Below are positions 52,967 through 56,991 of a DNA stretch of 64,000 nucleotides, piece after piece. The notes under the pieces were generated by a model. That model was not told where the DNA came from, made no database searches, and saw only the letters and a list, made by a program, of their open reading frames with translations. This DNA is from a virus: positions 1-64,000 of the IMG/VR virus record IMGVR_UViG_3300042868_013845; one strand, written 5' to 3'. Numbering within the stretch: the stretch's first letter is position 1; every line of letters starts with the position of its first letter. The translations under genes and the position numbers were made by a program.

Positions 52967-53755
52967 ATGTCTATGCTCAATGATTTAAAGGCTGCAATTA
53001 AAAAACACGGCAGCCTCGCACGCACCAATCGTTTTAAAGTTGATTTTAGTGTCATGAGCGCTTATTCTTCCAACTGGCGTGATCTTGAATATTTTTTAGA
53101 AGATGTTAATATACCAAGTAAAGATATAGAAACGGTTGATTATAGTCCATATCGTAATCCTATAGCATATGCAACAGGTTATAAACACGGAGATTTTAAT
53201 ATGAAATTTAGGGCTCCAACAAATATGTTTGTTAAACGCATATTTGATCGTTGGATAGAAAAAATCATGCCGCGCGAAGATTATAAATTAAGCTATCGCA
53301 AAGAAAACGTTGTTAATTTTAGGATTACTCAAGAATCAGAACGAACACCGGGGCATGACAAATATCTTGGCATTAATTATTATAATGTTTTGATACTAGA
53401 TGCCTATCCAATAAGTATCAGTTCTATTGAATATAGCAACACACAAGAGGGTGAATATGTAACATTTGATGTAGGTTTTGCATTTAGCGATGTTCAATAT
53501 TTTAAACCAAAAAGAAATACTGATATTCGTCAACTTGAAGAACCTCTTGATTTAGGTGATGGTACAGTTCCAACGGCATCAATACCATATGGATTCGTTC
53601 CAGCTCAATCTCCAATTGAGAATGCAACTTCTATTAGTGATTTTATAAGAAACCAATCAACTGTTCCAGTACAAGAACCAACACCTTTAGCGCGACCTAT
53701 AAATGTAAATTCATTATTAACTCCTATACGAGATAATACATCAATTGGACAATAA
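52967..53755 (+). CDS. gp54: gp54-like baseplate tail-tube initiator
   Basis: A 262-residue tube-fold protein: LARTNRFKVDFSVMSAYS, EYFLEDVNIPSKDIETVDYSPYRNPIAYATGYKHGDFNMKFRAPTNMFVKRIFDRWIEKIM, and LILDAYPISISSIEYSNTQEGEYVTFDVGFAFSDVQYF. The tube-like domain ends near residue 185; the remaining 75 residues are Pro/Ser/Thr-rich and probably flexible. T4 gp54 (320) caps the baseplate and starts the tube. The gp54 name is by fold and position, so another tube-related role is possible. Confidence 0.7.
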   Translation: MSMLNDLKAAIKKHGSLARTNRFKVDFSVMSAYSSNWRDLEYFLEDVNIPSKDIETVDYSPYRNPIAYATGYKHGDFNMKFRAPTNMFVKRIFDRWIEKIMPREDYKLSYRKENVVNFRITQESERTPGHDKYLGINYYNVLILDAYPISISSIEYSNTQEGEYVTFDVGFAFSDVQYFKPKRNTDIRQLEEPLDLGDGTVPTASIPYGFVPAQSPIENATSISDFIRNQSTVPVQEPTPLARPINVNSLLTPIRDNTSIGQ

Positions 53756-53796: not shown

Positions 53797-54504
53797 ATGA
53801 AATTACCTACATTAAACACTCCGAAATATACTCTTAAAGTACCAAGCACAGGTCAGACTATTGAATATCGTCCATTTCTTGTTAAAGAAGAAAAAGTTCT
53901 TATGCTTGCCCAAGAAAGTGGTAAGCCTGAAGATATGACTCGAGCAATGCTTGATATTATTCATGCATGTACCTTTGGTGCCGTTGATCCACAAAAACTT
54001 GCAAGTTTTGATCTTGAATATATCTTTGTTAAACTTCGTACAAAAAGTGTCGGTGAAGATGTTGAAGTTGGATTAAAGTGTGATAGCTGTGGTGCATTAA
54101 ATCATGTCAGTATTAATCTTGAACAGATTGATATGATTGGTGAAACAAAGCTGCCAAAGAAAATCATGCTTACTGATACAATTGGCATTGTGCCAAAATA
54201 TATTTCAATTAAAGATGTTGAAGTTATTAGTGCACACTCTGATGATAAAGCAAAAAGTCTAGTGTTGACAATTGCAGCAAGCATCGCTAGTATTTTTGAT
54301 GAAAATAACGTTTATGATATGTCAGAAGCTGGTTATGAAGAAGTTGATAACTTTATTAGTAGTCTTAATCGTCAACAGCTGAGCAAGATTGAAGAGCTTA
54401 TTCAAAACTCTCCTAAGTTTGAAAAAGATGTGACATTTGAATGTATTAGTTGTAATCATGAAAATAGTCACAAACTTAGTGGCATACAGAGTTTTTTCGA
54501 ATAG
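53797..54504 (+). CDS. gp26: gp26-like protein, probable tail assembly chaperone
   Basis: A 235-residue protein of the T4 gp26 baseplate-hub family: TLKVPSTGQTIEYRPFLVKEEKVLMLAQESGKPEDMTRAMLDIIHACTFG, DLEYIFVKLRTKSVGE. It has two CxxC pairs, C95/C98 and C216/C219, which could form a zinc ribbon. It ends QSFFE with TAG at 54502-54504, right after a slippery heptamer; a -1 shift would replace the last residue (E235) with 63 residues of gp51. Position just before gp51 and the tape measure parallels lambda G/GT. No late box is visible in the 41-bp gap upstream. Confidence 0.85.
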   Translation: MKLPTLNTPKYTLKVPSTGQTIEYRPFLVKEEKVLMLAQESGKPEDMTRAMLDIIHACTFGAVDPQKLASFDLEYIFVKLRTKSVGEDVEVGLKCDSCGALNHVSINLEQIDMIGETKLPKKIMLTDTIGIVPKYISIKDVEVISAHSDDKAKSLVLTIAASIASIFDENNVYDMSEAGYEEVDNFISSLNRQQLSKIEELIQNSPKFEKDVTFECISCNHENSHKLSGIQSFFE

Positions 54505-54612
54505 CTCTCTCCCATGATAGTCTTTTAAATCATTATAAGACTAATTTTTCAATGATGCAGCATCATAAATACAGTTTGACGGAACTTGATAATATGATGC
54601 CTTGGGAGAGAG
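54492..54612 (+). promoter_or_regulatory. Predicted programmed -1 ribosomal frameshift element (gp26 to gp51)
   Basis: Slippery heptamer T TTT TTC at 54492-54498, in the gp26 frame. After 6 nt (54499-54504, containing the gp26 stop) a 10-bp stem begins: CTCTCTCCCA (54505-54514) pairs perfectly with TGGGAGAGAG (54603-54612). A second stem AGTCTT (54519-54524)/AAGACT (54537-54542) lies in the loop. Spacing and geometry match known -1 frameshift stimulators. The -1 frame is open through gp51 to TAA 54687-54689. Confidence 0.7.
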
Positions 54613-54689
54613 AAATCTATGTTTCGTTGCTTGTTAAATGGATAAAGGAAGAAGAAGCAAGACAAAAATCTAAATCAAATGGACGATAA
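54498..54689 (+). CDS. gp51: gp51-like hub assembly protein, probably made as a gp26-gp51 frameshift product
   Basis: In the -1 frame relative to gp26 the sequence reads RIALSHDSLLNHYKTNFSM, then MQHHKYSLTELDNMMPWER and IYVSLLVKWIKEEEAR, which fits the conserved gp51 block HHKYSL...MPWEREIY. The first in-frame ATG is at 54552 (45 residues); no ATG, GTG or TTG occurs between the shift site and it, so the coding-like segment before the ATG can only be translated through frameshifting. The fusion would have 297 residues. T4 gp51 is a catalyst of hub assembly. The 3' end overlaps the tape measure start by 11 bp. Confidence 0.75.
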   Translation, partial: RIALSHDSLLNHYKTNFSMMQHHKYSLTELDNMMPWEREIYVSLLVKWIKEEEARQKSKSNGR

Positions 54690-56991
54690 AACCCTATTGC
54701 AAAGTCTAATCAACGAAATAAAAAATCTTAACGCACGAGGTGTAACAGATTCAAAAGTCTTGCGGGATAGTCTCTCGCAAGACTCTCTTATTTCTCAGGG
54801 CATAACTGATTTAAATAAGAAATTTGAAAAATCATCAAAAGATAACAAACAAATTCTTGATGATTCAAAATCAGTGCTCGAAGAAATACGTGATGAAATT
54901 AAGAATAATTCAGGTGGCAATCAGGGCGGTGGTATAGTTCAAGCGGCTAATCTTCAAAATCTATCAACATTGTTTTTTAAAATGGTTGATAGCACAAAGG
55001 ATTTAATTGCTATTAATACAAAGCTTAATAAAAATATTGAAGATCTTATAAAATCAAATAATGGTTTACGTAGTTTTAGAATAAATAGAAGACAAAGCCC
55101 AACCGACTCCACAACAGTAAATACAACACAAGAATCTGAGACGACTACTACTAGTACTAGTACTAATGAAAGTTCACAACCTTTACTTAAAAGATATAAT
55201 GATGTGGCAAAAGCTCTTGGATCGTTTATTGGTGCTATTAATGGCATTAAAATTATACCTGCATTAAAAGCAAGTTTTTTCTTGCCAATGATTGTTAGCA
55301 ATATGGCCAATGCCATGAAGAAATTTGATGAAGCAAATTTCTTCGGTAAATTGAGACGAAATAGTCAAACTATTACAACTGACAAACAAGAGGTTGAAAA
55401 TGTTTTTGACTATAGTTCAGATATATTTACTGCGATGAAATCACTTGCTGAAAGTTTGAAAACGATTCAAGACTTAAAATTAGTAAAAACGTGGGCCCAA
55501 ATAAAACTTTTATCAATTTTTATCATACCAAGTATGATAAAAGCTATTAGTAAATTTGAGAGAGTTAATGAAAAAACAGCAACAAAATTTGAAAAAATTG
55601 GCGAAAGTATTGGTAAGTTTTTAGAACCAATTAGTAATTTTATGGGTTCATTTGTAAAAATGGGATTAGGTTTAATTGCAATCGCTGCAGGAGTTTTAGC
55701 AATCGCCGGAGCAGCAATTATTGTATCTAAAATTGATACAGCAGCTTTACTTAAAGGTGGAATTGCTATTGGTGTATTTCTTACGACTGCTATATTAACA
55801 AGTTCAATTGCTGGAAAGGCAAATAAAACAAGTATTGCTCTTATTGTTTTAGGTGCAGCTATGATACCATTCGCGTATGGTATATCATTATTAAAAGACA
55901 TTGGTTGGGAACAAATCGCAGCAGCAGGAGCATCATTAGTATCATTAATAGGAACTTTGACTATAGCATCAAAATTTTCAACTAAAAGCAGTATAGCATT
56001 AATTGCATTCGGTGCAGCTATGATACCATTCGCTTATGGTTTATCACTACTTGGTGCAGTTAGTTGGCAACAAATTGCTGCAGTAGGAACATCATTAGTA
56101 GCTTTAATTGCATCGTTAACTGTAGCAGGAACTTTCTTAGCTAATCCAAAGGCTATGTTAGCTCTCGGATTAATAACAGCAGCAATTGCTGCTATAAGTT
56201 GGTCAATGAAAATGTTAGGTGAAGCTGCAAATATTTTTAATGCAGTTGATCCAGCAAAATTAGGTCTAGTGGCTCTATCGATGCTCGGTTTGAGTCTAAG
56301 TATATTACCACTTGTGCCATTTGCACCATTCGTTGGTATATTATCAATATCAATGGCAGTACTCGCCGCAACTTTAATGGCGCTATCTAAAGTTGGATTA
56401 CAGCTTGAACCTGTTACTAACTTTTTCAATGATTTTAAATCATTTATAAAAGAAATTGAAATAAGTAAAATTCTTGGTTTAAGTGCAGCGATTGGCACAT
56501 TAGGTCTCGCTATAAGTGCATTTGCTGCATCTAATTTTAGTGTAGGCATTTCTGATGCATTTAGCGGTATAATCGGATTTTTCACAGGAGAAAAAAGTAT
56601 AATTGAAAAACTTAAAGAATTGTCATCATTAACTGGTTTATCAGCAGTTGGAATGGGAGTAAAAGATCTTGCTGAAGGCATGAATATGCTAGCTCAAATA
56701 CAAAGCGGATCATTTGCTGGATTTAATGAATTTCCATGGGATAAAGTAAAGGAAATTTCAAAAGAATTACAAGATGGTGCTACACTGCAAATCATACCTG
56801 TTCTTAATGCTAATAGTCTTAATGGTCAAAAATTAGAAACAACAGGTGCAACAATGACAGGTGGCAACCAAGTTATTATAACAAATGTTACAAATACTGG
56901 TGGAAATGTAAGCACAACGAATGTATCGAACAACAATCGAAATGTTCGTGTTGCTCCAAGTATTGAAACTGGCAGTGCTAAAGGTTATTAA
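54679..56991 (+). CDS. gp29: gp29 tape measure protein
   Basis: A 770-residue protein (T4 gp29: 590). The N-terminal third is charged and helical (residues 1-140), then a Ser/Thr/Gln-rich stretch (about 141-172), then a long series of hydrophobic helices (about 180-630), typical of tape measures that lie in the tube and insert into the host membrane. An internal 53-residue tandem repeat occupies residues 383-488. The Asn/Thr-rich C terminus is probably flexible. Position after gp26/gp51 supports the assignment. The larger size predicts a longer tail than T4. Confidence 0.85.
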   Translation: MDDKTLLQSLINEIKNLNARGVTDSKVLRDSLSQDSLISQGITDLNKKFEKSSKDNKQILDDSKSVLEEIRDEIKNNSGGNQGGGIVQAANLQNLSTLFFKMVDSTKDLIAINTKLNKNIEDLIKSNNGLRSFRINRRQSPTDSTTVNTTQESETTTTSTSTNESSQPLLKRYNDVAKALGSFIGAINGIKIIPALKASFFLPMIVSNMANAMKKFDEANFFGKLRRNSQTITTDKQEVENVFDYSSDIFTAMKSLAESLKTIQDLKLVKTWAQIKLLSIFIIPSMIKAISKFERVNEKTATKFEKIGESIGKFLEPISNFMGSFVKMGLGLIAIAAGVLAIAGAAIIVSKIDTAALLKGGIAIGVFLTTAILTSSIAGKANKTSIALIVLGAAMIPFAYGISLLKDIGWEQIAAAGASLVSLIGTLTIASKFSTKSSIALIAFGAAMIPFAYGLSLLGAVSWQQIAAVGTSLVALIASLTVAGTFLANPKAMLALGLITAAIAAISWSMKMLGEAANIFNAVDPAKLGLVALSMLGLSLSILPLVPFAPFVGILSISMAVLAATLMALSKVGLQLEPVTNFFNDFKSFIKEIEISKILGLSAAIGTLGLAISAFAASNFSVGISDAFSGIIGFFTGEKSIIEKLKELSSLTGLSAVGMGVKDLAEGMNMLAQIQSGSFAGFNEFPWDKVKEISKELQDGATLQIIPVLNANSLNGQKLETTGATMTGGNQVIITNVTNTGGNVSTTNVSNNNRNVRVAPSIETGSAKGY
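55825..56142 (+). repeat. 53-codon tandem repeat in the tape measure gene
   Basis: Two 159-bp units (55825-55983 and 55984-56142). Both encode K-[TS]-SIALI-x-x-GAAMIPFAYG, then WxQIAAxGxSLVxLI. A 22-bp stretch (GGTGCAGCTATGATACCATTCG...) is identical in both. A degenerate third unit may follow. A duplication or deletion here would change predicted tail length in one step. Confidence 0.8.

Follow-up and report, generated by a model that had tools for sequence, protein, structure and literature searches.

The window analysed here, a stretch of 64,000 nucleotides, covers positions 1-64,000 of an 82,876-base virus record whose source is an uncultured relative of phage T4. At the locus under study (Table 1) lies a gp26 gene that matches the Pfam family T4_baseplate (PF12322, E 1.6e-56) and PHROG 150 (E 2.3e-60), and whose 3' end reads AGT TTT TTC GAA TAG. 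The in-frame slippery heptamer T_TTT_TTC that the initial annotation had placed at the end of gp26 is read there directly, followed by GAA and the TAG stop. From the heptamer on, the -1 frame meets no stop until a TAA at 54687-54689, and the peptide encoded in it begins RIALSHDSLLNHYKTNFSMMQHHKYSLTELDNMMPWER. Residues 2-61 of this peptide match PHROG 634, 'baseplate hub assembly catalyst' (gp51), with an E of 4.5e-30, in agreement with the earlier assignment of the frame to the gp51 block, and residues 3-49 also match positions 235-280 of the gp26 profile PHROG 150 (E 1.9e-6). The next ORF matches PHROG 4372 (tail length tape measure, E 3.6e-8), so that the order gp26-gp51-tape measure proposed from the sequence holds with this ORF as tape measure candidate. 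Together with the tail tube gene upstream, this is the placement of a pair of tail assembly chaperones (TACs).

Table 1. Features of the gp26/gp51 locus, with positions in the window
Feature	Position	Strand	Basis
Tail tube gene, upstream context	52967-53755	+	PHROG 45, E 1.5e-25
gp26, proposed short tail assembly chaperone TAC-N, 235 aa	53797-54504	+	Pfam and PHROG matches; AlphaFold2 model
TAC-NC fusion, predicted	53797-54689	+	0 frame to 54497/54498, then -1 from 54498; inferred
Place of Shine-Dalgarno-like element	54478-54482	+	9 nt 5' of heptamer; weak in the window
Slippery heptamer T_TTT_TTC	54492-54498	+	Direct reading; X = codon position 3
-1 frame extension TAC-C, 'gp51', 63 aa + stop	54498-54689	+	PHROG 634 and PHROG 150 matches
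0-frame stop of TAC-N (TAG)	54502-54504	+	3 nt past heptamer
Long-range stem, 5' arm	54505-54514	+	Exact complement of 54603-54612
Small hairpin within long loop	54573-54586 (54573-54577 with 54582-54586)	+	Pairing above synonymous sampling
Long-range stem, 3' arm	54603-54612	+	PWER motif encoded here
Tape measure candidate, 770 aa	54679-56991	+	PHROG 4372; overlaps end of -1 ORF

Relatives of gp26 were collected from IMG/VR, from GTDB contigs and from 14 named phages chosen by hand, to which the window was added; as the IMG/VR relatives include the best 80 of 593 confirmed matches and the best 80 of a further 99, this is a best-match sample. Among the matches listed there are 259 gp26 loci (175 + 84), six of which leave their contig before the stop. 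All of the 253 loci having a stop carry an in-frame T_TTT_TTN at most 45 bases from it (171/171 and 82/82, among the matches listed), a count that leaves out 22 Vi01-type loci, T4, Aeromonas phage 25, Kosakonia phage 305 and Vibrio phage Va1, as well as ten T4-type loci (L124-L133). The alignment of the junction in related phages, which had been suggested as a check, hence returned a conserved heptamer, and a chance occurrence is ruled out by these 253 in-frame sites among the matches listed. After seven loci with a cut-off -1 ORF and identical loci were dropped, 200 unique relatives remained, in which, among the matches listed, the heptamer is spelled TTTTTTC (168), TTTTTTT (28), TTTTTTA (3) or TTTTTTG (1) and its distance to the stop is 3 nt in 164 cases, with a range of 0-24. 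In four loci (L139, L165, L184 and L199) the heptamer starts 31 bases 5' of the stop; TAC-N is several codons longer there and the heptamer is retained. Further analyses used 79 representatives with gp26 less than 75% identical to each other, or an earlier set of 63.

Conservation of the heptamer is in part driven by the protein, since the Phe-Phe that it encodes is a conserved feature too. The codon that precedes TTT ends in T throughout, whether it encodes Asn, Asp, Ser, Ala, Thr, Arg or His, and the product of the codon-usage expectations for this T is 10^-17.8 when the 63 representatives are taken as independent and their relatedness is ignored. Of 39 Phe-Phe pairs elsewhere in the same genes, only 2 are spelled TTT TTC. 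A natural control is provided by gene 26 of the T4 type, which needs no shift and lacks the slippery spelling: in T4 and Kosakonia phage 305 the Phe-Phe at the same place is spelled GAG TTC TTT, and Aeromonas phage 25 is without Phe-Phe at that place.

Downstream of the heptamer, the two arms of the stem pointed out by the initial annotation are exactly complementary, forming a perfect 10-bp stem that begins after a spacer of 6 nt and closes a loop of 88 nt. This exceeds chance: when the 125 nt downstream were shuffled 200 times with dinucleotides preserved, a stem of at least 10 bp arose four times, and the fold of 120 nt has a z of -4.3 against dinucleotide shuffles. Shorter folds of 60 and 90 nt stop before the far arm and do not stand out (z -1.4 and -0.6). 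The nested stem described for the loop is predicted in the window, with 7 bp (54518-54524 with 54537-54543) instead of the 6 given earlier. As a conserved element this inner stem is not supported, its pairing showing no excess over the synonymous expectation. The small hairpin at 54573-54586 has a paired fraction of 0.694 as compared with 0.508 in synonymous sampling, a value reached in 0 of 200 samples. A search of Rfam with 54300-54900 returned nothing at E up to 1.

In the 62 representatives other than the window, the stem positions are paired at 0.752, as against 0.611 ± 0.014 after synonymous codon resampling and 0.632 ± 0.012 after synonymous permutation within each row, and neither control reached the observed value (0/200 each). 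At least 8 of the 10 pairs are kept in 41 of the 79 representatives of the matches listed, mainly in the window's clade. The other 38 of these 79, with at most 7 pairs, lack the stem, among them KVP40, AS-zj, EniLVp02, RL2RES, ACP17, Ps15, phiM7 and three of the four named cyanophages; the stem therefore cannot be generally required. On a tree of gp26 the stem is found in 37 of 40 rows of the window's branch (support 89, unstarred, midpoint root only), whereas the branch that includes the four named cyanophages lacks it in 14 of its 15 rows; presence or absence of the stem takes 7 changes on the tree, as compared with 26.6 when the labels are shuffled. The minimum-energy fold contains the stem in 37 of the 41 rows with at least 8 pairs and in one of the 38 others, and the mean fold z is -3.25 in stem-keeping rows versus -1.79 in the rest. 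RNAalifold found no consensus on all 63 rows, nor on the 26 non-stem rows; it yields the outer stem on 37 rows that had been preselected for keeping it, which was not taken as proof since the choice of rows makes the result circular.

The compensatory changes that had been named as a further check on the stem take the form of synonymous covariation. At the third bases 54509/54608, the 58 representatives with Leu and Glu codons show C-G in 21, T-A in 21, C-A in 7 and T-G in one, the remaining 8 having G or A at 54509, and the association among the 50 with C or T at 54509 is strong (Fisher 3.6e-7). Because genome composition could cause third-base covariation, rows were matched by GC3, and against this null two of the three third-third stem pairs rank 2 and 3 of 1586. 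The third, 54512/54605, lies opposite a Trp codon that hardly varies and comes only at rank 506; rank 1 is held by 54521/54644, a pair outside the stem. When arms were swapped between GC3-matched rows, pairing fell from the observed 0.731 to 0.686 ± 0.009, and the observed value was never reached (0/200). Composition as the cause of the covariation is thereby ruled out for the whole stem and for two of the three third-third pairs. As the representatives are related, the covariation was also compared across independent lineages on the gp26 tree, where 54509/54608 changed in the same way in 4.5 of 5 comparisons, an underpowered comparison with a median p of 0.125, and pair 54506/54611 found no support (2.6 versus 2.0).

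From these sequence comparisons we conclude that a folded RNA downstream of the slip site is conserved in part of the group, chiefly in the window's clade. A downstream structure as expected of a -1 signal is present at a spacer of 6 nt, with 41 of the 79 representatives (of the matches listed) keeping it, and the stem would presumably act as a stimulator of frameshifting. It is unlikely, though worth considering, that the shift is real and the long stem serves another purpose, either by occluding the start of the tape measure gene or by tuning mRNA decay: the 3' arm ends 67 nt ahead of the tape measure start, and 38 of the 79 representatives (of the matches listed) keep the heptamer without the stem. 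However, the predicted fold keeps the stem at this very place in 37 of the 41 rows with at least 8 pairs, and a spacer of 6 nt, which is within the usual range for -1 stimulators, fits the stimulator role.

A second element lies upstream. A GG ending nine bases 5' of the heptamer is present in 76 of the 79 representatives of the matches listed, mostly within a stretch like GAGGG, AAGGG or AGAGG at a conserved Gly codon. The pairing of this element with the 16S end averages -5.55 over 63 rows, against -4.86 in synonymous permutations within the gene (0/100). The window's own Shine-Dalgarno-like pairing, at -2.5 kcal/mol, corresponds to the 41st percentile of the background. A trade-off between the strength of the stem and that of the Shine-Dalgarno-like element is weak (rho 0.25, p 0.025).

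The first ATG, GTG or TTG in the -1 frame is the ATG at 54552, so that the first 18 residues after the slip are without a start codon. These 18 residues are conserved nearly as well as those after the start (mean 0.62 versus 0.65 in 63 representatives), which upholds the earlier observation of a coding stretch ahead of the first ATG that has no start of its own. In 40 of the 63 representatives there is no -1 frame start codon before the 11th post-slip residue. The conserved sequence of the -1 frame includes a RIALSHDSL segment. Since conserved peptide precedes the start codon, an independent gp51 start would often miss conserved sequence. Architecture and conservation are those expected of a long form in which a C-terminal domain is added to the short form by way of a -1 overlap close to the 3' end of the upstream ORF.

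The genes of T4 bear on the same point. In T4, Aeromonas phage 25 and Kosakonia phage 305, genes 26 and 51 stand on opposite strands. The profile of their three gp51 proteins aligns with the predicted fusion across the junction (hhalign, 241 columns, probability 99.4%, E 1.3e-21), the N-terminal part of the fusion is matched by the three gp26 proteins (99.6%, E 3.9e-24), and T4-type gp26 and gp51 are paralogues of each other (97.6%, E 3.6e-12). As T4-type gp51 matches the whole fusion, T4 seems to use two genes where the window uses a shift. It has to be weighed whether gp51 is a separate small protein made from the ATG at 54552 by translational coupling, the heptamer being a by-product of Phe-Phe. 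The Melnitz-1 and S-ShM2 records do annotate gp51 as its own gene with a start past the slip site, the first post-slip start falls at the alignment column of ATG 54552 in 22 of 63 representatives, and 6 of 63 have a -1 frame start upstream of the slip. S-ShM2 and Melnitz both carry the heptamer, and Melnitz has the stem as well. Nevertheless, the conserved coding sequence before the start and the 40 representatives without an early start codon disfavour an independent start, and with the heptamer kept at the level of its bases and T4-type gp51 homologous across the junction we regard this explanation as very improbable. Less credible still is a change of frame by slippage of RNA polymerase on the T run, which reaches 7 or 8 T in 28 of the 200 unique relatives, for just six T, short for known transcriptional slippage, are found in the other 172 (both among the matches listed), the X_XXY_YYZ phase is invariant in all 253 loci among the matches listed, and a stem 6 nt downstream that is conserved in part of the group suits a ribosomal stimulator.

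The initial annotation had suggested that T4-type gp26 and gp51 are frameshift-linked tail assembly chaperones. The link itself is supported by 253 of 253 heptamers among the matches listed, the conserved peptide ahead of the first start codon, the homology of the fusion with gp51 and the stem; the 'T4-type' scope was too wide, as T4 has separate paralogues on opposite strands and no slip site. Vibrio phage Va1 (L100:1311-2653), which lacks the heptamer, has two adjacent genes on the same strand, unlike T4's divergent pair; they match the fusion profile with probabilities of 96.0% and 97.7%, the first being gp26-like and the second ending in the gp51 tail, and perhaps represent a further duplication. 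A different arrangement is seen in the Vi01-type loci (22, of which 15 are unique: L087, L097, L098, L103 and L106-L123), which comprise the Ackermannviridae Vi01, Kuja, MAM1 and SW16-7 and the IMG/VR relatives of Vi01. Here a gp51-like -1 ORF overlaps gp26, and the site is A/G_ATT_TTC, G_GTT_TTC or C_CTT_TTT. With just the tetramer T_TTC or T_TTT present, good re-pairing is open to the A-site codon alone. Among Z_ZZN tetramers compared in E. coli in the presence of a strong stimulator, U_UUC came second and U_UUU third (PMC4066793), and the Vi01-type tetramer is a lead as a possible shift site.

The fold of gp26 was considered as to its chaperone identity. An AlphaFold2 model built with 64 relatives has a pLDDT of 93, and its top named matches in BFVD are other gp26-type proteins. 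Foldseek gave no match in the PDB at E <= 0.001; its hit to the HK97 tail assembly chaperone 2ob9 had an E of 2.8. With a second aligner, 2ob9 was the best PDB match at a Z of 7.3, below the value of 8 under which chance arrangements occur; the alignment takes in 83 residues of 107 and lies over residues 1-85 of gp26, and the next PDB entry scores 5.1. The two proteins share 10% identity, and gp26 has about 150 extra residues. This match between a model and a structure is only suggestive of a chaperone. An NCBIfam search gave nothing above the cut-off. According to a passage in PMC3004832, T4 gp51 is required yet missing from the particle.

Taken by its sequence, the slip site very probably lets some ribosomes shift into the -1 frame and make a longer tail chaperone. 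We hold it highly likely that gp26 is TAC-N, that the shift gives a fusion of TAC-N and gp51, TAC-NC, and that the stem of the window's clade probably raises its rate. The occurrence and rate of the shift, the effect of the stem and the action as chaperones are inferred from the features described above. Most ribosomes would terminate at the TAG at 54502 and release TAC-N. In a minority, the Phe-tRNAs in the P and A sites on TTT TTC would slip back by one base to pair with TTT TTT, after which 54498-54689 would be translated in the -1 frame to give TAC-NC, like lambda gpG and gpGT. In the window's clade, the 10-bp stem with its 88-nt loop would probably increase the slip rate, and the Shine-Dalgarno-like sequence nine bases upstream probably assists in many relatives and little in the window. 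If lambda is a guide, the tape measure would be coated by many copies of TAC-N and few of TAC-NC, which would deliver tail tube subunits to it. More tentatively, and at somewhat less than even chance, we propose that one ratio is set by interchangeable devices: a long-range RNA domain would set the shift in the clade, which is mostly metagenomic and T4-like, local hairpins and a stronger Shine-Dalgarno-like element would do so in stemless relatives, an A-site-only slip on T_TTC or T_TTT in the Vi01 type, and gene duplication would take its place in T4. Part of this proposal is that the 88-nt loop is internally variable and that both arms lie in conserved protein motifs and are kept by synonymous covariation.

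The lambda gpG/gpGT slip sequence presumably differs from that of the window, and we take the E. coli dnaX site to be A_AAA_AAG, as compared with T_TTT_TTC here. Vladimirov, Gautam and Davidson (Virology 2022) reportedly recognised gp26 and gp51 as the tail assembly chaperones of T4-like phages; frameshifting is said to be apparently conserved in several T4-like groups, with T4 using genes 26 and 51. The core idea is thus not new. Parts of later papers credit the same work with poly-T slip signals in T4-like TAC-N genes (PMC12846349) and with a fused long gene that replaces the shift in some T4-like phages (PMC10885494), and an older review describes conservation of the shift among long tailed phages 'except T4' (PMC5009743). 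In lambda, as outlined in a section of that review, gpG and gpGT are likewise a short and a frameshift-extended chaperone acting on the tape measure (PMC5009743). The -1 shift of E. coli dnaX combines a slip site with an upstream Shine-Dalgarno-like element and a downstream structure, as given in portions of PMC5600365 and PMC7282821; unlike dnaX, the stem of the window closes an 88-nt loop. A conserved downstream stem at the gp26/gp51 site was not found among the literature titles and abstracts listed, at most 12 to 30 per search, most subscription papers being outside this coverage. While the shift in T4-like gp26/gp51 is already known, what is new is this genome and a better-supported putative RNA stimulator.

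The arrangement also offers an explanation for the short cyanophage gp51 of the literature. In one part of PMC3037559, cyanophage gp51 is described as having about 20% of the length of other T4-like gp51 proteins, with the first approximately 200 residues missing; what is absent there is very probably gp26, which the frameshift would add. In Synechococcus phage ACG-2014i (L085:3007-3189) and Aeromonas phage AS-zj (L090:2507-2670), the -1 gp51 ORF has been left unannotated. The findings suggest that several of the public genomes covered list gp51 wrongly as a gene of its own, or omit it, and they support gp26 and gp51 of T4 as tail assembly chaperones. The shift with a stem, the shift without one, the tetramer-type shift and the duplicated genes would form a natural series in which the maintenance of a fixed protein ratio may be studied.
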